Source: Tahibacter aquaticus | GTDB lineage: Bacteria; Pseudomonadota; Gammaproteobacteria; Xanthomonadales; Rhodanobacteraceae | DNA: 59,459 nt | Direction of reading: 5' to 3' | Assembly: GCF_004363655.1 (NCBI RefSeq) | Contig: NZ_SNZH01000004.1 | Location: forward strand, 387,825-447,283 | In this document: positions 5,529-53,610 of the stretch, piece by piece | Numbering within the stretch: position 1 is the stretch's first letter | Layout of the letters: each line of letters begins with the position of its first letter | Made by a program: the position numbers and the translations under genes | The notes under the pieces: generated by a model | Databases searched by the model: none | What the model saw: the letters and a program-made list of their open reading frames with translations, nothing else | Told to the model about the DNA's origin: nothing

Positions 5529-7471
5529 ACGCACGACTTTGCCTGCTAGCCCTGTTCGGATTCGCCAGCGCGGCCCAGGCCCAGGTACCGGCCAACGGCA
5601 GCTTCGAAACGGGCGATCTCACCAGCTGGACCACCGGCGGCTATACCCGCGTCGGCGCGATCCGCGCCAGCAATATCACGCCCACCACGTCGCTGGTGAT
5701 TCCCGACGGCACCTGGGCGGCAGCCATCTCCACCGGCCCGGGCGAACGCGCCACCGGCACCACCGGCGGCGTCGATTTCGACGGCCTGGGCGGCGTCAAC
5801 GACTACGACCTGAGCTACCTGCAGTCCGTATTCACCCTGCCGGCCAACTCCAACTACGTCGCCTTCAACTGGGGCTTCGCCTCGGGCGAACAGAACGAGC
5901 CCGACCAGTACGACGACGTGATGGATGTCACCGTCAACGGCACGCGCATCATGACGCGCTCCAGCTGCAAGTTGAACGGTTCGAGTTATTCGCCATTTCC
6001 CAACGCCAACTGCCAGAGCGCAACCGTCGTCGATCACACCGTCAACAACACCGCGACGGCCAACCTGCGCACCATCAACCTGCGTTTCGGTTCGCCCGTG
6101 TTCCAGCGCATCTGCCTGCCGCTGCCGGCGGGGCTGGTCACCGGCAGCAACGTCACGCTGCGCTTCAACGTGGCCGACCAGAATGATCACCAGGTCGATT
6201 CCACCCTGTTCATAGACGACGTGGAGATCAAAAGCTCCTGCAACGAGGTCGGCACCATCGTGCAGCTGACCACGACCACCGGCCGCAATGTCGAGGTCAA
6301 GGGCGGTGGCTTCCTGTTCCGCCAGGCCAGTGCGCGCGCGCTGGCCACCGATGCCACCGGCAAGACCGTTGCCTTCATCACCAGCGCCGATCACGGCAGC
6401 AATGCCAACCTGCTCGACCAGATCTATATCTGGAACGGCACCAGCTTCAGCCGCGCCAGCTGGACCGGCACCCAGATGGCCAGCGGCGGCCAGATACAGA
6501 ACCTGGCACTGTCGCCGCTGCAGGACAGCACCCTGCTCGGCCGCTATATCGTCTTCGCCGCCAAGCTCAGCGAAACCGACAACTACGAGATCTACTACTA
6601 CGACCGCAGCACCAGCGCGCTGGCCACGATCACCACGACCAGCGGCTGCGACAACACCGACCCGACTGTCGACGGCGACGGCGGCGTGATCGCCTGGGTG
6701 TCCAACTGCAATGCACTGACGTCCGCCGGCAGCCTGCGCCGCATCGTCGTGCGCAACATGGCCACCAGCGCCAACACCATCGTGCCCGGCCCGGCAATGT
6801 GCGCTGCCAACCGCGAAGCACGCGGCGTGCGCCTGACCAAGAACGCCAACGGCCGCTACCTGGTGTTCGAATCCGACTGCCAGCCGGTGGCCTCCGGCAA
6901 CACCGATCTGAACTACGAAATCTTCCGCTACGACCGCAACGGTGCCGCCACCGCCGCCGCCAGCTACCTGCAGATCACCAGCACCACCACCAATGCAAGC
7001 GCCGCGCAGATCACCCAGAACAGTTTCGCCGTGCTCGACGGCTCCAGCGACGGCCGCTATACGTATTTCATTTCCAACGGCAACCTCACGCCCAGCGGCA
7101 GCATCTTCAATGCCGACTACAGTTTCGAAATCTTCCGCTACGACGCCAACGCAGCGCTCGCTTCGCGCACTGTCCAGCGCACCAACGGCTCGGACAGCGA
7201 CTACATCGGCGTCGACACCGGCGTCGACGGCGCCACCGACTACGCCTTCGAGCGTTTCGAGCGCAATACCTTCAATACCAGCGTCGGCCGACGCCGCATA
7301 CCGACCACCGGCACCGACAGCGAAAACCTGCTCGCCAGCGCCTCGTTCGTGTTCGGCGCACGCATAGGCCTGGACGGCGTGGTGCCGGTGGTGAATTTCC
7401 TCTCGCCGGAAAACTTCCTCGGCACCAATGCCGACGGCAATACCGAAGTCTGGCAGGGGAGAGTGCAATGA
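5525..7471 (+). CDS. Large exported protein with N-terminal lectin-like part and beta-propeller-like repeats
   Basis: A 648-residue protein with a signal peptide ending at ASAAQA-Q. Residues 20-235 start NGSFETGDLTSWTTGG and contain DSTLFIDDVEIKSSC. This is the pattern of choice-of-anchor, PEP-CTERM-type beta-sandwich domains. From about residue 250 to the end there are repeated strands of the TolB/PD40 type (VAFITSADHGSNANL, NYEIYYYDRSTSALATITT, YLVFESDCQPVASG, NYEIFRYDRNG), suggesting a propeller. Translational coupling (4-nt overlaps on both sides) with the usher-like gene and the next exported gene makes a surface-exposed tip or adhesin role plausible. No catalytic motif is seen. Confidence 0.65.
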   Translation: MNARLCLLALFGFASAAQAQVPANGSFETGDLTSWTTGGYTRVGAIRASNITPTTSLVIPDGTWAAAISTGPGERATGTTGGVDFDGLGGVNDYDLSYLQSVFTLPANSNYVAFNWGFASGEQNEPDQYDDVMDVTVNGTRIMTRSSCKLNGSSYSPFPNANCQSATVVDHTVNNTATANLRTINLRFGSPVFQRICLPLPAGLVTGSNVTLRFNVADQNDHQVDSTLFIDDVEIKSSCNEVGTIVQLTTTTGRNVEVKGGGFLFRQASARALATDATGKTVAFITSADHGSNANLLDQIYIWNGTSFSRASWTGTQMASGGQIQNLALSPLQDSTLLGRYIVFAAKLSETDNYEIYYYDRSTSALATITTTSGCDNTDPTVDGDGGVIAWVSNCNALTSAGSLRRIVVRNMATSANTIVPGPAMCAANREARGVRLTKNANGRYLVFESDCQPVASGNTDLNYEIFRYDRNGAATAAASYLQITSTTTNASAAQITQNSFAVLDGSSDGRYTYFISNGNLTPSGSIFNADYSFEIFRYDANAALASRTVQRTNGSDSDYIGVDTGVDGATDYAFERFERNTFNTSVGRRRIPTTGTDSENLLASASFVFGARIGLDGVVPVVNFLSPENFLGTNADGNTEVWQGRVQ

Positions 7472-8268
7472 GCCGTCGTCCGATACTTGCGTCTGCGCTG
7501 CTGCTCGCCGCGGTGTCCGCCCACGGCAACCGCTCCGATGTGCTGCAGGGCGACGCCTACGGCCACCGCATCAGCGCCGACCCGGCCCTGTGCGCCTACG
7601 AACCGATCGACATGTCGGCCGCGGCCAGCCTGGCGCCGATCGCCGCCGGCGGCAGCGCGAGCGCGCTCGACGACGGCGCTGCCGTGGTCGATCTGCCGCA
7701 GGCGTTTCCGTTCTACGGCACGGCACCGACGCGCCTGTCGGTTTCCACCAATGGATATATCGCTTTTGTCAACGCGGCCGACGAAGAAGACGGCGGCGAC
7801 TACAACAACGATCCCTACGTACCCAGCCTGCCGGACAATGCGCGCGCGGGCTCTGCGCGTCTGTACGTCTACCACGACGAACTCAACGGCGAAGGCGGCG
7901 GCGCCAGCCTGCGCAGCGCCTATTTCGCCCACTGCCCACGCACCTCGCTGATTCCGGACGAAGCCTGCAGCGTGATCGCCTGGAAAGGCTGGTCGCGCGG
8001 CGGCAGCAGCGGCAGCCTCGACGTGACCGCGGTGCTGTACCACGGCAGCGGCAATATCGCCCTGCAGTACGCCAGCCTCGACGCCAGTGCCGGCAATTCG
8101 GCCTGCATCGGCGCCCAGTCCGACGGAGCCATCGACGGCGTCAGCTGGAGCTGCAACGGCGGCCGCAGTCTGGCCGCGGCCACGGCGGTCTGCATTTTCG
8201 ACCCGGCCTATGCGCCGCCGGTGGTGGAAGACGCCCTGTTCGCCGACGGTTTCGATCTGCCCGAATGA
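7468..8268 (+). CDS. Exported protein ending in the LFADGFD tail
   Basis: A 266-residue protein that overlaps the previous stop codon (ATGA). The signal peptide ends near AVSAHG. The body has STNGYIAFVNAADEED, resembling a NIDO or PEP-CTERM-like exported beta domain, four or more cysteines consistent with disulfides, and the C-terminus EDALFADGFDLPE. That tail is shared with other exported proteins here (ends at 9946, 12629 and 15083). It is the last gene of the six-gene operon. The next gene is convergent, 13 nt away. Function unknown. Confidence 0.65.
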   Translation: MSRRPILASALLLAAVSAHGNRSDVLQGDAYGHRISADPALCAYEPIDMSAAASLAPIAAGGSASALDDGAAVVDLPQAFPFYGTAPTRLSVSTNGYIAFVNAADEEDGGDYNNDPYVPSLPDNARAGSARLYVYHDELNGEGGGASLRSAYFAHCPRTSLIPDEACSVIAWKGWSRGGSSGSLDVTAVLYHGSGNIALQYASLDASAGNSACIGAQSDGAIDGVSWSCNGGRSLAAATAVCIFDPAYAPPVVEDALFADGFDLPE

Positions 8269-8281
8269 TCGCGCCGCCGTT

Positions 8282-8779
8282 TCAGCCGTTGCGCTCGATG
8301 TTGTGCCGCACGCGTTCAATTTCTGCCTGCTGGTCGCGCGACATGGCGATGATCTTTTCCGCATAGGCAGACAGAATCACATCGTCTTCGGTCTGCGGCA
8401 GCCAGGGCGGCACACCGGTCGGCCGGCCTTCCGGCGCATCCAGCGCGACGAAGCTGATGACGCAGTGGGTAGCCAGCCGCTCCAGCCCGGACTTGAGGTC
8501 GCGCGCAATCACGTCGACGGCGAAGTGCATGCTGCTGGCTCCGGTACGGATGAGCTTGCAGCGTACGACGACAATATCGCCGATCAGTATCGGCTTGACG
8601 AACTGGATGCCGCCCAGCGCCACCGTCACGCAGTACTGCCCGCTCCAGCCCACGGCCGCGGCGTAGCCGGCCTGGTCTATCCACTTCATGACCATGCCGC
8701 CGTGCACCTTGCCGCCGAAATTGACGTCGGTGGGCTGGGCCAGGAATCGGAACGTGGTTTCGCGCTGTTGGCCGGGCAT
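8282..8779 (-). CDS. Acyl-CoA thioesterase, YciA/ACOT-type hotdog protein
   Basis: A 165-residue cytoplasmic protein. The segment TDVNFGGKVHGGMVMKWIDQAGY is the hallmark of the hotdog-fold acyl-CoA thioesterase family (YciA/BFIT/ACOT), where the Asn/Asp and the HGG turn shape the active site for hydrolysis of acyl-CoA to fatty acid and CoA. FVKPILIGDIV and SGLERLATHCVISFVALD are the second half of the fold. The length matches single-domain members. It stands alone between exported-protein genes, tail to tail with the operon on its left. Its substrate cannot be told from the sequence. Confidence 0.85.
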   Translation of the reverse strand: MPGQQRETTFRFLAQPTDVNFGGKVHGGMVMKWIDQAGYAAAVGWSGQYCVTVALGGIQFVKPILIGDIVVVRCKLIRTGASSMHFAVDVIARDLKSGLERLATHCVISFVALDAPEGRPTGVPPWLPQTEDDVILSAYAEKIIAMSRDQQAEIERVRHNIERNG

Positions 8780-8833
8780 TGCTGGGGCTCGCTGGGCTTG
8801 CTTGACGGGCGCTCATGCTAACCCAGGGCCAAA

Positions 8834-8874
8834 CGTGACGCACGTCACATTTTGACATTAACCGTTTCTATACT
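8834..8874 (+). promoter_or_regulatory. CRP/Clp operator with a -10 box at class II spacing
   Basis: CGTGA-N6-TCACA at 8834-8849 is nine of ten to the CRP/Clp consensus. TATACT at 8869-8874 is a good -10. With transcription starting about 7 nt further on (near 8881), the operator is centred near -40, the position of activator sites in class II CRP promoters. A TTGACA at 8852-8857 is only 11 nt from the -10, too close to serve as a normal -35. So activator-dependent transcription of the exported-protein gene at 8921 is the better reading. Confidence 0.6.
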
Positions 8875-8920
8875 TTTCGAGACGCTCAGGGGTTATCGCA
8901 AGAACCAATTGGGGTGATCC

Positions 8921-9946
8921 ATGAATCGCAAGGCGATCGCGCTGGTGACAGCGCTGGCGTGTACGGGCGCGGGCGCGGCAGAGGTAACGGTCAAGAACGA
9001 TTCCCTTGGCGATTTCGACCCCGGCGCCATCGTCTGGGGCTTTGCACCCGGCGAAGCGGCAGCGTCCTGGCTGACCTCGCCCTGCAACGGCAATCTGCGC
9101 GCGGTGCAAGTGTTCTGGCGCTCGCCCAACGCCAATTCCGCCGTCGAGATCCACGACTCCATCACTGTCTTTCGCGGCGGCACCTTTCCCAATCCCGGTG
9201 CCGAGGCAGCCGTGATCGGCGGTCCCGTGCTCAACGACGGCGTGATCAACCAGTGGCGCTTCCTCGACGAGAACAACACGATTCCGCTCAACGTGCCGCT
9301 GAGCAACGGCGAGGTGTTCGTCATCTCGTTCAAGTTCTTCACCGAGCCGCTGGCCGGCAGCGGCCCCAGCGTGGTGCGCGACGCCGACGGCATCCAGTCC
9401 AACCGCAACGCGCTGCTGGCAGACTTCGGTGGCACCTTCGTCTGGTTCAACAGTGCCACCCTGGGCCTGACCGGCGACTGGGTCATCCGTGGCGTCGTCG
9501 ACTGCCCGGTCGTGGTGCAGAACGCCGATGTCGCGGTGAATCTCAGCGCCAGCCTGCCGCTGTACAGCCCCGGCGCCCCGCTCGACTACACCGTCACCGT
9601 AAGCAATGCCGGACCGGTCGCCGCGGCGAATACCAGCATCGTCGACATCTTCCCCGCCGGCTATACCGCCACCAGCTGGACCTGCAGCGCCAGCGGCGGC
9701 GCCAGCTGTACCTCAGGCGGCAGCGGCAACATCACCCAGAACGTGAGCCTCCCCTCCGGCAGCCAGGTCATCTACCAGGTCAGCGGCACGGTCGATGCCG
9801 GCACCACCGGCAGTCTCAGCAACGCAGCTACCGCCGTCGTCGGCGGTTCCGTCACCGATCCCAGCCCCAGCAACAACACCATGTCGCTGCTCCTGTTGCC
9901 GGAAAGCGACCGGCTGTTCAAGGACACGTTCGAACCGGTGAACTGA
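8921..9946 (+). CDS. Exported protein with a DUF11-like domain and an LFKDTFEP tail
   Basis: A 341-residue protein with a short signal peptide ending at GAGAA-EV. Residues about 200-325 (NADVAVNLSASLPLYSPGAP, DYTVTVSNAGPVAAANTSIV, VTDPSPSNNTMSLLL) match the DUF11/conserved-repeat beta domain found in bacterial surface and exported proteins. The N-terminal 190 residues form an unrecognised beta-rich domain. The protein ends RLFKDTFEPVN, a variant of the tail shared by neighbours. It is a single-gene unit behind a CRP/Clp-type promoter. A 10-bp hairpin lies 22 nt past the stop codon. Role unknown; surface or secreted. Confidence 0.65.
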   Translation: MNRKAIALVTALACTGAGAAEVTVKNDSLGDFDPGAIVWGFAPGEAAASWLTSPCNGNLRAVQVFWRSPNANSAVEIHDSITVFRGGTFPNPGAEAAVIGGPVLNDGVINQWRFLDENNTIPLNVPLSNGEVFVISFKFFTEPLAGSGPSVVRDADGIQSNRNALLADFGGTFVWFNSATLGLTGDWVIRGVVDCPVVVQNADVAVNLSASLPLYSPGAPLDYTVTVSNAGPVAAANTSIVDIFPAGYTATSWTCSASGGASCTSGGSGNITQNVSLPSGSQVIYQVSGTVDAGTTGSLSNAATAVVGGSVTDPSPSNNTMSLLLLPESDRLFKDTFEPVN

Positions 9947-10337
9947 AACGCTCGCCGCTGTCGCCTACGTCACGCCGCGCACCGCGGCGTGACGCCGATC
10001 CGCCCGCCTCCTCTGCGCCACCATCCGCATCCCTGCGCAGGCGCACCACAGCCATACCATCGCCACGCCGCCGTGATCCGGGACTGACCGCGCCTGCGCT
10101 TCGCACTACGCAGCCGGCACGACACAACGCCCGCTGATGCCCTGCGGAACTCCGCGCCCGACCCGGGCGGCCCGCTGTATTCCGTGCTGAATTCCGCGCT
10201 GAGACATCGACAGCGCTCGCGGCACTACGCGTTATGGCTTTTGCCACGTTTTGGCAATCGCGCCATTTCCTGGTTTTTCCAATCGCGCGGACTTCATGCC
10301 GGCGCCGCCGGCGTCGGCTGCCCTCAAGGAGCTGTAC
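9947..10337. other. Intergenic region before the first RCC1-repeat gene
   Basis: No convincing gene. It begins with a perfect hairpin (9969-9993) and ends with the ribosome site AAGGAG (10326-10331). A somewhat T-rich patch near 10240-10280 may carry the promoter, but I cannot place boxes with confidence. Confidence 0.5.
9969..9993 (+). terminator. Hairpin after the DUF11-like gene, without a T tract
   Basis: GTCACGCCGC (9969-9978) and GCGGCGTGAC (9984-9993) form a perfect 10-bp stem with a 5-nt loop. There is no T run after it, so it may protect a 3' end or act with Rho and need not be an intrinsic terminator. Confidence 0.4.
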
Positions 10338-12629
10338 ATGGCCGTCCACCGCAACATACTCGTGTTTTCGCTGGTCTTGCTCGCCCCGATTCTCGCCGGC
10401 ATCGCCAGGACCAGCACTGCCGCCACGATCGCCGCCGGCGGCTACCACACCTGTGCCATCGGCGAAGCCGCTGGCGAAATGCGCTGCTGGGGCAGCGGCA
10501 GCTACGGCAAGCTCGCCAACGGCAGCGGACCGGAACTGGACCGTGCCGCGCCGGTCGCCATATCGTCGCCGATAGCGCGCTGGCGCTCGGTTGCCGTCGG
10601 CGACAGCCATGCCTGCGCGATCGCCGCCAGCGGTGCCGTGTATTGCTGGGGCTATAACGGCTTCGGCCAGCTTGGCGACGGCACGTCGATCACGCGACCG
10701 GCACCGGTAGCCGTGGTTGGTCTGGGCAGTGGAGTGGCGCAGCTCAGCGTGGGTCTGAACCACAGCTGCGCGCTGATGCACAGCGGCAAGGTCAATTGCT
10801 GGGGAGCCGGCGAGTTCGGCCGCCTAGGCTCCGGCCAGGTCGCCAACCAGACCACGCCTGGCGAAGTTCTCACCTTGACCGGCGCCATCTCCGTCGGCGC
10901 GGGCGCATACCATACCTGCGCCGCCATCAACGATGGCAGCGTGAAATGCTGGGGGCGCAACGGCAGCGGCCAGATTGGCGACGGGTCGGCGGTAAACCGG
11001 CTCACTCCCGTCTTCACCTCTATCACCATCGCCGCGACCGAAGTCGCCATCGGCGGCTACCACGGCTGCGCCCGCAGCGCCGCCGGCGCAGTGCAATGCT
11101 GGGGTTACAACGCCGACGGAGAACTCGGCAACGGTACGACGGCAACGAGCACTGTCGCGGTGAACGTCGAGGGCCTTGCCAGCGGCGCTACCAGACTGGC
11201 CGCCGGCATTTACCACAGCTGCGCGCTGACTGCGGGCGATATCCTCAAGTGCTGGGGTTACAACGGCTATGGCCAGATCGGCGATGGCGCTACGGGCCCT
11301 GCGGTAGTGCGCCCTACCAGCGTGGTCAATCTGCCTATCCCGGTCGCCGAAGTCACTGCCGGCAACGACCATACCTGCGTACGCGCCAGCGGCAACCGCA
11401 TCCAATGCTGGGGACGTGCACTGCATGGGCGCACCGGTGTCGGCAATACCGCAACCAGCCCAGGCTATGCGCAACGTCCGCTGGCCGTCTCTGGCCTTCC
11501 CGCACCAGCAGTCAAGCTGTCGCTGCGAACCAACAATGCCTGTGCCGTAACCGTCATCGGCTCGGCCAGCTGCTGGGGTAATAACGAGTCCGGCCAGATC
11601 GGCGACGGCCTGGCGCTGCCGCATGCGACGTTTGTCTATCAAGCAGGCCCGCGCGACGTGGCAGACCTGAGCTCCGGCGTGCGCGATATTGCCACCGGCG
11701 ATCTGCATGCCTGCGCGCTGAAGACCAACGGCACGGTCTGGTGCTGGGGCAGCAATATCTACGGCCAGCTCGGCGACCAGACCGCGATTGCGCGGCGCAC
11801 ACCGGTACAGGTCATCGGCATCGTCAATGCGGTACAGATCGCCGCGGGCATCGGCTTTTCCTGCGCCCGTACCGCGGTCGGCGGCGTGTGGTGCTGGGGA
11901 TTCAACACCAACGGCCAGCTCGGCAATGGCACGAATACCCACAGCCTGCAGGCGGTTCCTGCGATCGGCCTTGGCCAGGACATCGTCGACCTGAGCCTGG
12001 GCAACGCGTTTGCCTGTGCTGTCAGGAACGACGGCAAGGTGCTGTGCTGGGGCAGCAACACGCGCGGCCAGCTCGGCGATGGCACCGCGACAGCGCGCAA
12101 TGTGCCGACCCTGGTCAACGACAATTTCGGTATCTATGCCGGCATCGCCACCGGTGGCGAATTCAGCTGCGGCCTGACCAGCGCCGGACAGGCCAAATGC
12201 TGGGGCTACAACGATGTCGGCCAGCTCGGTGACGGTTCGCTGATGCAGCGATCTACGCCAGCCGGTGTCGCCACATTGAGCAGCGGCGTGGCGCGGTTGG
12301 CGGCAGGCCAGTATCACGCCTGCGCTCTGCTCTCCAGCGGCCAGCTCAAGTGCTGGGGCTACAACGCGAACTATCAGCTCGGCGACGGAACCCTCGTCAA
12401 CCGCACGCAACCGGTGCCGGCCGCCAATGTCAGCGGCAGCATCCACAGTCTGGCGCTGAGCGGCCAATCCAGTTGTGTCGTGCTGGCCGACGAAAGCAGC
12501 CGCTGCTGGGGGCTCAACAGCGCCGGCCAGCTCGGCAACGGCAGTATCGCGGCCAACTTCGCCGTGCCACAGGAAATTGCCCAGTGGCTGCGCGACGACC
12601 TGATCTTCCGCGACGATTTCGAGCCTTGA
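10338..12629 (+). CDS. Exported 14-repeat RCC1-type protein, first of a tandem pair
   Basis: A 763-residue protein. The ATG at 10338 is preceded 6 nt away by AAGGAG; the in-frame ATG at 10251 is not. The signal peptide ends near RTSTA-ATIAAGG. The mature protein contains 14 copies of an RCC1-type repeat of about 50 residues: Gly-Xaa-Tyr/His-His-Xaa-Cys-Ala followed by CWG-x-N-x-x-GQLGDG. Fourteen blades would make two 7-bladed propellers. Each repeat holds two cysteines, unusual in the family but sensible for disulfides outside the cytoplasm. It ends DDLIFRDDFEP, the shared tail. Neighbours suggest a cell-surface protein; no enzyme motif is visible. Confidence 0.75.
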   Translation: MAVHRNILVFSLVLLAPILAGIARTSTAATIAAGGYHTCAIGEAAGEMRCWGSGSYGKLANGSGPELDRAAPVAISSPIARWRSVAVGDSHACAIAASGAVYCWGYNGFGQLGDGTSITRPAPVAVVGLGSGVAQLSVGLNHSCALMHSGKVNCWGAGEFGRLGSGQVANQTTPGEVLTLTGAISVGAGAYHTCAAINDGSVKCWGRNGSGQIGDGSAVNRLTPVFTSITIAATEVAIGGYHGCARSAAGAVQCWGYNADGELGNGTTATSTVAVNVEGLASGATRLAAGIYHSCALTAGDILKCWGYNGYGQIGDGATGPAVVRPTSVVNLPIPVAEVTAGNDHTCVRASGNRIQCWGRALHGRTGVGNTATSPGYAQRPLAVSGLPAPAVKLSLRTNNACAVTVIGSASCWGNNESGQIGDGLALPHATFVYQAGPRDVADLSSGVRDIATGDLHACALKTNGTVWCWGSNIYGQLGDQTAIARRTPVQVIGIVNAVQIAAGIGFSCARTAVGGVWCWGFNTNGQLGNGTNTHSLQAVPAIGLGQDIVDLSLGNAFACAVRNDGKVLCWGSNTRGQLGDGTATARNVPTLVNDNFGIYAGIATGGEFSCGLTSAGQAKCWGYNDVGQLGDGSLMQRSTPAGVATLSSGVARLAAGQYHACALLSSGQLKCWGYNANYQLGDGTLVNRTQPVPAANVSGSIHSLALSGQSSCVVLADESSRCWGLNSAGQLGNGSIAANFAVPQEIAQWLRDDLIFRDDFEP

Positions 12630-12824
12630 GCGCAGGGCAAGCGCCGCCGCTGGGCCGCTGTACGGCTGGCTCGCCCATGGCGGCCAGCCACAGCCGACAC
12701 AAAGAATAAATTTAATTTTTATATTTTCTGGTGAAAACCCTCTCGCGTCGAGCGCCCGGCATGCATGGCATGTCGAAGCATCGTCGACGGCATGTATCGA
12801 CGGAAACTCCTACGGAGAAAAACC
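12630..12824 (+). promoter_or_regulatory. AT-rich leader before the second RCC1-repeat gene
   Basis: Positions 12701-12730 are strikingly AT-rich (aataaatttaatttttata type sequence) in an otherwise GC-rich region, as expected for a promoter or UP element. GGAG at 12814-12817 is the ribosome site for the ATG at 12825. Exact -35 and -10 boxes are not assigned. Confidence 0.35.
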
Positions 12825-15083
12825 ATGGCGCGACGAAATGGAATTTCCTTGTTAAATTTTTTGCTTGTTCCACTACTACCGGCCGGCGCAAACACCGCCA
12901 GCGCAGCGACCATCGCCGCAGGCGGCTACCACAGCTGCGCCATCGACGACACCACCGGCGAGATGCGCTGCTGGGGCCGCGACAACCTGGGCCAGCTCGG
13001 CGACGGCAAGAGCGTGGACCGCTCAGCTCCGGTCGCGGTCAGCACCAGCGTGCCGCGCTGGCTCTCCGTCGCCACCGGCGAAAGCCACAGTTGCGCCATT
13101 GCTGCCAACGGCCCGGTGTATTGCTGGGGCTACAACGCCTTCGGCCAGCTCGGCGACGGTACCCTGACCAATCGCCAGACGCCGGTAGCCGTGGCCGGTC
13201 TGAACAGCGGCGTCCGCCAGCTCGCGCTGGGCAGCCATCACAGTTGCGCCCTGATGCACAGCGGAAAAATCAACTGCTGGGGCAATGGCGCCAACGGCCG
13301 CCTCGGTTCCGGCCAGACCACCAACCAGGCCACGCCGGCAGAAGTGCTGACGGTGACCGATGCGGTTGCCATCGGCGTGGGCGGTGGTCACAGCTGCGCG
13401 GTGCTCGCCGACGGCAGCATGAAATGCTGGGGCCTCAACATCGACGGGCAGGTCGGCGACGGCACACAGACCGACCGTGCCATACCGGTATTTGTCTCCG
13501 GCAATATCACGGCACACGCCATTTCGCTCGGCGGTTTTCATAGCTGCGCACTGAATACAGCCGGCGCCTTGCAGTGCTGGGGCAGGAACGCCTCGGGCCA
13601 GCTGGGCGACGGCACCACCATCCGGCGGCTGACCCCCGTCGCCATTGGCGCAATCGGCAGCGGCGCGAGCCAGCTGGTCACCGGCGCCTATCACAGCTGC
13701 GTCCTCGCCAGCGGCAACGTGCTCAAGTGCTGGGGCTTTAACGACACGGGTCAGCTCGGCAACGGCACGGTCACCGGTTCGACCGTTCCGCTCAACGTCG
13801 TCAATGCAACAGCACCAATCCTCGCGCTGAGCGCGGGCCTTGCACACACCTGCCTGCGCAGCAGCGGCAACCGCATCCAGTGCTGGGGCAATGGCGACTA
13901 CGGCAGGACCGGCACCGGCGACAGCAGCGCCAGCTCGCCGCTGGTCTCGCTGCCGGCGCTGATCTCCGGCCTGCCCGCTGGCGTGGCCAGCCTCAGCCTG
14001 CGCAGTAACACCAGCTGCGCGAGCACCAGTCCCGGCTCGGCGCACTGCTGGGGACTCAACAGCCCTGGCCAGATCGGCGACGGCGGCGTAGTACGGCATG
14101 CAGGACCGCGCAACGTTGCCGGCCAGCAGTCGGCCGTCGCCGGTGCAGCCATCGGCGACGCCCACGGCTGCGCCGTCAAAACCAATGGCACGGTCTGGTG
14201 CTGGGGCAGCAACACCTACGGGCAGATCGGCGACCAGACCACGCTGGCGCGACCGATCGCCGTACAGACCGTCGGCATCACCGACGCCGTGCAAGTCGGC
14301 ACCGGCCTCGCCTTCTCCTGTGCACGCACCGCGGCCGGCGCGGTCTGGTGCTGGGGGATCAACAGCTACGGCCACCTGGGCGACGGCAGCACCACCAACC
14401 GTTCCCAGCCGGTGGCCGTTGTCGGTTTGAACGGCGGTGTCGTTGCCCTCAGCGTCGGCGACCGTCATGCCTGCGCCGTGCGCAGCGACGGCAGCGTGCG
14501 TTGCTGGGGATACAACAACCTGGGACAGGTCGGCGACGGCAGCCAGACCAACCGCCTGGTTCCCGTGGCGATCAACGACGGGTTTTCCAGCTATGTCGCC
14601 GTAGCCGCGGGGAACGAGCACAGCTGCGGCATCACCACGGACGGACAAGCCAAATGCTGGGGCAGCAACGTCTACGGGCAGCTGGGCGACGGCAGCAATG
14701 TAACGCGTTCATCGCCAGCTGGCGTAACTACCTTGACCAGCGGCGTGAGGCAGATCGCCACGGGCGACTATCACAGCTGCGCGCTGCTGAGCACCGGTGC
14801 GCTGAAGTGCTGGGGCCGCAACAATCTGTACCAGCTTGGCGACGACACCGTCGCCAACCGGACGCAGCCCGTCACCGCAAGCACCATCGCCGGCGATATC
14901 CAGACCGTGGTGCTGGGCATGCAGGCCAGTTGTGCCGTGCTGTCCGGCGGCAGCGCAAAATGCTGGGGCCTGAACAGCAATGGCCAGCTGGGCAACGGCA
15001 GCATCGTCAATACGCGTATCCCCGAGCCTGTCGCCCAGTGGCTGCGCGACGACCTGATCTTCCGCGACGGCTTCGCGCCTTAG
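12825..15083 (+). CDS. Exported 14-repeat RCC1-type protein, second of a tandem pair
   Basis: A 752-residue paralogue of the preceding gene, similar from the first mature residues (ATIAAGGYHSC) to the last (VAQWLRDDLIFRDGFAP), so the pair arose by tandem duplication. The ATG at 12825 has GGAG 7 nt upstream. A hydrophobic leader ends near ANTASA. It also has 14 CWG-x-N-x-x-GQ/GR repeat cores, each with a partner His-Ser/Thr-Cys-Ala. Separate leaders and an AT-rich spacer suggest each copy has its own promoter. A strong hairpin follows the stop codon. Function unknown; probably a secreted or surface beta-propeller. Confidence 0.75.
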   Translation: MARRNGISLLNFLLVPLLPAGANTASAATIAAGGYHSCAIDDTTGEMRCWGRDNLGQLGDGKSVDRSAPVAVSTSVPRWLSVATGESHSCAIAANGPVYCWGYNAFGQLGDGTLTNRQTPVAVAGLNSGVRQLALGSHHSCALMHSGKINCWGNGANGRLGSGQTTNQATPAEVLTVTDAVAIGVGGGHSCAVLADGSMKCWGLNIDGQVGDGTQTDRAIPVFVSGNITAHAISLGGFHSCALNTAGALQCWGRNASGQLGDGTTIRRLTPVAIGAIGSGASQLVTGAYHSCVLASGNVLKCWGFNDTGQLGNGTVTGSTVPLNVVNATAPILALSAGLAHTCLRSSGNRIQCWGNGDYGRTGTGDSSASSPLVSLPALISGLPAGVASLSLRSNTSCASTSPGSAHCWGLNSPGQIGDGGVVRHAGPRNVAGQQSAVAGAAIGDAHGCAVKTNGTVWCWGSNTYGQIGDQTTLARPIAVQTVGITDAVQVGTGLAFSCARTAAGAVWCWGINSYGHLGDGSTTNRSQPVAVVGLNGGVVALSVGDRHACAVRSDGSVRCWGYNNLGQVGDGSQTNRLVPVAINDGFSSYVAVAAGNEHSCGITTDGQAKCWGSNVYGQLGDGSNVTRSSPAGVTTLTSGVRQIATGDYHSCALLSTGALKCWGRNNLYQLGDDTVANRTQPVTASTIAGDIQTVVLGMQASCAVLSGGSAKCWGLNSNGQLGNGSIVNTRIPEPVAQWLRDDLIFRDGFAP

Positions 15084-53067: not shown

Positions 53068-53610
53068 ATCAACCGCCATCTACTCGCCGCGCTGCTCGCC
53101 CTGACCAGCGGCGCCGCTTCCGCCGAAATCGTCACTGTGCGCTACGAATTCTTCGACGACGCCGCCTATTCCTACCGCTACGGCTGGTTCGGCTCTGACC
53201 TCGGCCCGACCGAAGGCACCATCCTCGGCACCAAGCTCGTGCTCAAGGATTACCGCGTACCGGCCGGCCTCGACGCGGCACACTTCCACTTCGACTTCGC
53301 GCTCCCGACCACCGGAACCTCGCCGTCCATCTTCATCGAAGGCACCGAGATGGGCTGGTCCGGCACCGGCACGTTCGATTTTGAAATGAAGACCGACGGT
53401 TTCAACGGCACCATCCTGCCCGGCGGCTTCGGCGCCACCATGATGCACGTGCTGCCCGACGGCAGCGCCATCGCCGGCGGCACGTTCTTCGGCGACCAGT
53501 ACCTCGAATTCACCGTCGACCGTATTCCGCCGGACGAAATCTTCCTCAGTTCGTTCGAGGAGAACTTCGAAGAGGCGAACGAAACGCACGCCGCCTACCC
53601 CGCTCACTGA
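53068..53610 (+). CDS. Exported protein apparently starting at ATC, with an internal IFLSSFE motif
   Basis: A 180-residue product. ACGGAG (53056-53061) is followed after 6 nt by ATC at 53068, and from there the frame reads x-NRHLLAALLALTSGAASA-EIV, a perfect signal peptide. No ATG, GTG or TTG occurs near it in this frame; the first GTG (53137) would cut off the leader. So the start codon is either a rare ATC or a mutated or misread ATG. The mature protein is beta-rich (FHFDFALPTTGTSPSIFIEG). It contains PDEIFLSSFE, like the tails of other exported proteins here, but then continues 17 residues. Confidence 0.6.
   Translation: MNRHLLAALLALTSGAASAEIVTVRYEFFDDAAYSYRYGWFGSDLGPTEGTILGTKLVLKDYRVPAGLDAAHFHFDFALPTTGTSPSIFIEGTEMGWSGTGTFDFEMKTDGFNGTILPGGFGATMMHVLPDGSAIAGGTFFGDQYLEFTVDRIPPDEIFLSSFEENFEEANETHAAYPAH

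Follow-up and report, generated by a model that had tools for sequence, protein, structure and literature searches.

A short C-terminal tail shared by diverse exported proteins of Tahibacter aquaticus and its relatives co-occurs with a second type II secretion system

The stretch of Tahibacter aquaticus DNA analysed here (the window; 59,459 nucleotides, contig NZ_SNZH01000004.1, positions 387,825 to 447,283) encodes four proteins on its forward strand that finish in the same short motif or, in one case, in a variant of it; we refer to this C-terminal element as the tail. The first is an exported protein with no Pfam match (7468..8268), which has its likely start at 7468, begins with the signal peptide MSRRPILASALLLAAVSAHG and carries the tail VEDALFADGFDLPE (8224..8265), ending in ALFADGFDLPE before the stop codon at 8266-8268. 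It is followed by an exported DUF11 protein (8921..9946) with the tail ESDRLFKDTFEPVN (9902..9943), which ends in RLFKDTFEPVN before the stop codon at 9944-9946, and by an exported RCC1-repeat protein (10338..12629; likely start the methionine at 10338, from the translation) with the tail LRDDLIFRDDFEP (12588..12626), ending in LIFRDDFEP before the stop codon at 12627-12629. A second RCC1-repeat protein (12825..15083; likely start the methionine at 12825, again from the translation) is a paralogue of the third protein, 58% identical to it, and bears the variant tail LRDDLIFRDGFAP (15042..15080), in which A replaces E/D; its end, LIFRDGFAP with the stop codon at 15081-15083, thus closes with F-A instead of F-[ED]. 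Searched as a DNA pattern, [ILM]F-x-[DN]-x-F-[DE] matched the window three times, at the tails ending at 8268, 9946 and 12629, and gave no match in 100 shuffles. A first-pass annotation of this DNA had listed five such tails on otherwise unrelated bodies. Four of them are exactly as claimed, while the fifth, EIFLSSFE in a protein at 53137..53610 (forward strand), is doubtful and probably no functional tail: it lies 16 residues before the end of the protein, has S at the D/N position, where S occurs in none of 37 tails from the genome, and belongs to a protein for which a crude predictor gave no signal peptide. The bodies, too, are not all unrelated, given the two RCC1 paralogues; the remaining ones do differ. 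No model matching the tail was found for the five window proteins in NCBIfam (E<=10) or Pfam (E<=1).

The host genome (7.27 Mb in 82 contigs) contains dozens of copies of the tail, with a consensus of about nine residues, D-x-[IL]-F-x-[DN]-[GD]-F-[ED]-x(0-3)-stop. At the DNA level, [ILM]F-x-D-x-F-E matched 29 times compared to 0 for its reversed control, a pattern also allowing N matched 46 times compared to 0, and a looser pattern 227 times compared to 62. With both the reversed-pattern and the shuffle controls at 0, an effect of composition was rejected. For a gene-level view, genes were called with a home-made, imperfect codon model in 80 stretches chosen around motif matches, comprising 96 of the first 100 loose-pattern places outside the window and six strict places. 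A loose tail (F-x-[DNSG]-x-F-[DE] within 15 residues of the end) was found in 39 of 476 host genes, a few of which, such as those in L031 and L053, look like chance; as 31 of the 39 stem from the first-100 set, extrapolation to 227 places suggests very roughly 60-75 loose-form tails in the genome. The logo of 37 host tails has D at -2 in 25, [IL] in 35, F in 37, [DN] in 36, the second F in 37 and E or D in 28 and 9, respectively, the F and [ED] positions being fixed by the search expression itself. The protein ends at most three residues past the motif in 31 of these 37 tails and at most four in 32; the host tails printed out have neither a hydrophobic stretch nor a basic end, and the logo has no conserved Cys. 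Across 451 called genes of the window and the fetched stretches (163,240 residues), the strict motif was located 35 times in the final 12 residues and only once further inside a protein.

Tailed proteins are enriched in signal-peptide-like N-termini, as scored with a home-made, crude predictor whose lax setting provides the main counts. Such starts were found in 33 of 39 loose-tail host genes compared to 161 of 337 untailed genes, in 31 of 34 host tail proteins compared to 150 of 305 others (p=8e-7), and, at loci of named relatives, in 54 of 61 tail proteins compared to 96 of 249 others (p=4e-13). At the strictest threshold the difference shrinks, to 9/34 versus 37/305 in the host (p=0.026) and 13/61 versus 27/249 in the relatives (p=0.029). 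In the sampled genes, the tail is therefore commoner on signal-peptide-bearing proteins and not, as the first-pass annotation had asked, equally frequent on cytoplasmic ones.

The bodies in front of the tail are of extracellular type and include subtilases, M14 and M12B-like peptidases, ExeM/NucH nuclease, phospholipase C, beta-propellers, MAM and DUF11. Their assignments are taken from the families listed, which for the larger protein sets are the best 25 of 63, 45 and 62. NCBIfam (E<=0.01) thus relates 35 host tail proteins to rhombosortase-dependent M36 (6), choice-of-anchor J (5), an LPXTG serine peptidase family (4) and myxosortase-dependent M36 (2), and one protein each to T9SS-dependent M36 (T9SS, type IX secretion system), ExeM/NucH, ExeM-GG, MXAN_5453 MYXO-CTERM-anchored, ScyF PEP-CTERM and choice-of-anchor D; several of these matches probably reflect shared domains only. 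The 61 tail proteins from the relatives' loci include 12 matches to choice-of-anchor Q and 4 to rhombotarget A. Among the NCBIfam and Pfam families listed for the larger sets there is no named model for the tail itself, which, in our reading of these sequences, may occupy the place where other lineages put sorting tags. As the body families differ (RCC1, nuclease, phospholipase, subtilase, DUF11), the motif is not part of one larger homologous domain, and a single shared C-terminal domain was rejected as its source. A rough control of 72 untailed, signal-peptide-like host proteins, some of them membrane proteins, has TonB receptors, amidohydrolases, GGDEF and transporters among its listed Pfam families; the best 25 of 63 families of the tailed set and the best 25 of 104 of the untailed set do not overlap. 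The untailed window protein 3066-5525 matches CarboxypepD_reg, and so do four tailed proteins.

The occurrence of the tail beyond the host points to a single order, for which Xanthomonadales and Lysobacterales are equivalent names. A scan of a sequence collection with a GC-rich version of the tail, followed by a stop codon, yielded 112 stretches, several of them from one genome. Among the best 80 of the 112, 65 carry Lysobacterales/Xanthomonadales-type names (Dokdonella, Tahibacter, Pseudofulvimonas, Chiayiivirga and many metagenome-assembled genomes), the rest being assigned to Marinicella (1), only to 'Proteobacteria' (12), to Gammaproteobacteria (1) and to Alphaproteobacteria (1); in the last two stretches no tail gene was called. 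Over 299 genomes of the order the tag count is bimodal, and we call tag-rich those with an excess over control of at least 10, a threshold set after seeing the data. Outside the order but within the class, none of 229 genomes (232 drawn, of which 3 proved to be in-order) had an excess above 6, as read by eye, and the tail is thus apparently restricted to one order. Nine tag-poor genomes gave 31 motif matches, one genome having none; none of the 30 matches examined qualified as a tail, for which 60 residues upstream were additionally required at these loci. One of the tag-poor loci, L390 of genome G019, has the motif five residues before a stop in an open reading frame of only ~40 codons, and could represent chance or a remnant tail. 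We found no description of the tail in the open-access literature, where searches with motif strings gave spurious matches only. The view of the first-pass annotation that exported proteins share a sorting or secretion tag without transmembrane segment or basic end thus holds across the genome and across the order.

That annotation had also proposed to look for a gene whose presence tracks the motif across genomes, and a second type II secretion system (T2SS), which we term T2SS-A, has emerged as the candidate partner. In a panel of 60 genomes, two GspDs above the family cut-off were found in 30/30 tag-rich, compared to 5/30 tag-poor, genomes. In a GspD tree, one GspD of each of 16 tag-rich genomes falls into a single clade (class A, support 97), whereas their second GspD (class B) clusters with the sole GspD found in tag-poor genomes. 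In an enlarged tree, class A also includes the GspDs of G082, G117 and G152 of family f8 and of the tag-less G257, while the class-A-like GspDs of G230, G275, G023 and G061 lie outside the clade. GspG at class A level (164 bits or more) was detected, among 66 genomes searched, in 30/30 tag-rich genomes and, outside this group, in G230, G257, G275, f2 G023, G061, G075 and G175. The genes of T2SS-A, whose names rest on resemblance, are split over two clusters, with gspC-D-E-F in one and gspG-N in the other. The first (16 loci) holds gspC, gspD and gspE, with a gspF-like gene found in 7 by clustering, and is flanked by ftsE-like (7), ftsX-like (6), helicase-like (10), trxA-like (8) and rho-like (7) genes; the second lies near rsmE in 10 of 18 loci, 2 of these tag-poor. 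No recurrent extra gene was seen in these clusters beyond the gsp genes and the conserved flanks. Class A GspC has T2SSC and PDZ domains in 3/3 proteins scanned, compared to a PDZ match in 0/2 class B candidates, whose identity as GspC is itself weak. In the tag-less f1 genomes G257 and G275, the class-A-like T2SS genes lie close together in one region each (L426 and L427), and these systems were possibly acquired horizontally.

For all 299 genomes, a profile search with a class A GspD threshold of E<=1e-188, set after inspection and with G230 (6.5e-184) just under it, was entered by hand into a co-occurrence table. Class A GspD is present in 89/105 tag-rich genomes versus 20/194 others, in 71/79 versus 8/170 among genomes at least 90% complete, and in 49/50 versus 4/151 among those at least 98% complete, so that co-occurrence is nearly complete in complete genomes; the significance tests ignore phylogeny. 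Tail and T2SS-A are also repeatedly absent together, in the main clade of f1, in f1 g5 (G053, G269), in the main clade of f2 and in G019 of f9, in the last of which neither GspD nor GspG was matched. In the class B tree, tag-poor genomes without class A nest beside tag-rich ones (f1 g5 by G150, the f2 main clade by G091/G237), which indicates that joint loss happened more than once. Of the 16 tag-rich genomes without class A at this threshold, two belong to f8 (G063, G097) and 14 are drafts of f4, f9, f10 and f12 in 150-530 contigs, in which the class A gene is possibly missing or split. A thin comparison of ExeM, for which the frames of G031, G110, G279 and G281 run beyond the fetched locus and end outside it, found no tail on short forms with visible ends in either the tag-rich or the tag-poor group. 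The long form carries a tail in the host and, in G012, a variant of it with F-Q; tails also close the 1065-residue forms found in G016 and G034. In G269, which lacks class A, the long form is extended by ~670 other residues and has no tail at its end. Among the sampled loci, homologues of the bodies of tailed proteins were themselves tailed in 3/6 cases in tag-rich loci and in 0/2 in tag-poor or f8 loci.

Based on these sequence comparisons, we propose that T2SS-A recognises the tail as a short, linear secretion signal at the C-terminus, a reading to which we assign a probability of roughly one half. More tentatively, it may be a linear, transplantable type II secretion signal common to the cargo of a dedicated second T2SS. 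Tailed proteins would be taken across the inner membrane by their N-terminal signal peptide, and their folding in the periplasm would leave the D-x-[IL]-F-x-[DN]-[GD]-F-[ED] tail exposed; the dedicated T2SS-A would then bind the tail, plausibly via the PDZ domain of its GspC, and the proteins would exit through the class A secretin. We infer that T2SS-A is the reader and the GspC PDZ domain the docking site, with no further partner needed. Two properties of T2SS cargo are found here: an N-terminal export signal, on the 31/34 host and 54/61 relatives' tail proteins counted above with the lax, crude predictor, and the presence of a T2SS, with two GspDs in all 30 tag-rich panel genomes. The tail sequence would fit a short exposed peptide; in AlphaFold models of a MAM C-terminus and an RCC1 protein it is among the lowest-confidence parts, which proves little, as both models are poor (mean pLDDT, predicted local distance difference test, 59 and 54). 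Earlier work describes T2SS cargo as folding in the periplasm (PMC12369372; PMC7949064), flexible loops as acting as T2SS signals (PMC7949064) and the GspC PDZ domain as being required, in some instances, for a subset of cargo (PMC12369372), the authors of the latter stating there that a linear universal signal is lacking. Described cases of substrate recognition, PelI/Pel3 with OutC/OutD and VesB with the EpsC PDZ domain, involve conformational or internal signals; they resemble our proposal in that a GspC PDZ domain can be needed for a cargo subset (PMC12369372), while one linear C-terminal motif across dozens of cargo candidates in Lysobacterales sets the present system apart. Given this role of the GspC PDZ domain and the fit to a short exposed peptide, we rank a signal for T2SS-A first, a docking tag second and an enzyme substrate third.

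Several observations weigh against a signal read by T2SS-A. In f8, class A is absent from 33 of 39 genomes, yet there is a small motif excess (0-15), and f8 genomes with class B GspD only still carry real tails: with six loci examined per genome, 6 in G097 (of 11 matches), 2 in G063 (of 17), 2 in G056 (of 8), 1 in G107 (of 10) and 0 in G018 (of 6), so that tails can persist without class A. At a further f8 locus, L306 of G063, a tail sequence directly follows an in-frame stop behind an exported-type body, possibly a decaying tail in a genome without T2SS-A. Conversely, G257 has a GspD of the class A clade and zero tails, G064, G089 and G119 carry class A with few motifs, and an A-like GspD scoring below the threshold occurs in 21 tag-poor genomes of at least 98% completeness (the second T2SS of f2, G230, G275); in one tag-poor genome with an A-like system, G061, GspC aligns with class A GspCs through the PDZ part. 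The untailed ExeM homologues of tag-rich genomes indicate that a T2SS-type body need not carry a tail. Finally, the co-occurrence is confined to one order and reflects few independent events, and T2SS-A was picked as a guess and not by unbiased profiling, so that other genes may share its profile.

The persistence of f8 tails beside class B alone would be accommodated by a tag usable on any T2SS cargo, that is, by a retention or surface-docking tag, with cargo leaving by the T2SS and the tail then binding an outer-membrane or surface receptor. The tailed bodies also match families that carry anchoring tags elsewhere, sharing rhombosortase- and myxosortase-dependent M36, ExeM, RbtA and MXAN_5453 with GlyGly-CTERM and MYXO-CTERM proteins. 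These proteins use the T2SS for export and their tag for anchoring (PMC11980579). Their tags consist of three parts (motif, helix, basic cluster) and are processed by intramembrane proteases, in contrast to the Lysobacterales tail of ~9 residues, which has neither this architecture nor a helix nor an invariant Cys, and membership in either class was therefore rejected. A docking tag alone would leave unexplained why tails are missing where the class B T2SS is present and T2SS-A is not, and no receptor candidate was found; we consider this alternative rather unlikely.

We think it still less probable that the tail is recognised by an enzyme for processing or attachment, in the manner of a sortase or a T9SS partner, whose phylogenetic profile coincides with that of T2SS-A by chance. 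The relation of many proteins to one partner does resemble known C-terminal sorting systems, above all PEP-CTERM, where, in a minority of lineages, a C-terminal tag likewise marks dozens of otherwise unrelated exported proteins in each genome, and an exosortase-like PF09721 match was obtained in 15/30 tag-rich compared to 1/30 tag-poor genomes, with best scores of 30-41 bits. However, the host and the other 15 of the 30 tag-rich genomes gave no match to PF09721, the family searched for such an enzyme, and the tail has no PEP motif, transmembrane helix or basic end. With no helix or basic cluster past the motif, 31 of the 37 tails ending within three residues, and no exosortase match in the host, PEP-CTERM membership was rejected, and processing by a membrane enzyme as in PEP-CTERM or MYXO-CTERM, the classes to which the first-pass annotation had likened the tail, is unsupported. 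In the T9SS of Bacteroidota, a C-terminal domain directs Sec-exported proteins across the outer membrane; like the tail it is a C-terminal signal, but these domains are folded and comprise about 70-100 residues. It is very improbable that the tail arose by chance or for structural reasons, as the final strand of a common C-terminal fold, as a recombination cassette or through composition. This is already contradicted by the diverse bodies and by the controls (29 host matches versus 0), and the low confidence of the tail in the two poor models also speaks, if only slightly, against it; in its favour, a MAM-like or choice-of-anchor domain directly precedes the tail in some of the proteins.

Clustering of the tail-gene loci yielded no universal neighbour, and a neighbouring gene was thus rejected as a universal partner. 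Genes for extracytoplasmic-function-type sigma factors recur in 10 of these loci, at most about 500 bases from the tail gene in L151, L139, L135, L153, L130 and L083, and genes for Ser/Thr-kinase-like/tetratricopeptide-repeat proteins in 7; a regulatory link of the sigma factor and kinase-like genes to the tail genes is possible. Loci L070, L107, L116 and L165, and in part L137, share a conserved cluster in which the gene for a tail protein of ~390 residues is accompanied by genes for a multihaem-cytochrome-like and a small lipoprotein-like protein.

Cargo selection by type II secretion systems has long been an open question. If the tail is indeed read by T2SS-A, the cargo of a T2SS would be predictable from sequence, and a nine-residue tail that tracks one of two T2SSs per cell would make cargo choice testable by grafting the tail. 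If it serves as an anchor instead, it would represent a Gram-negative class of C-terminal sorting tags that lack a helix, for which we found no name. Either way, the tail singles out dozens of secreted or surface proteins per genome across an order with many uncultured members.

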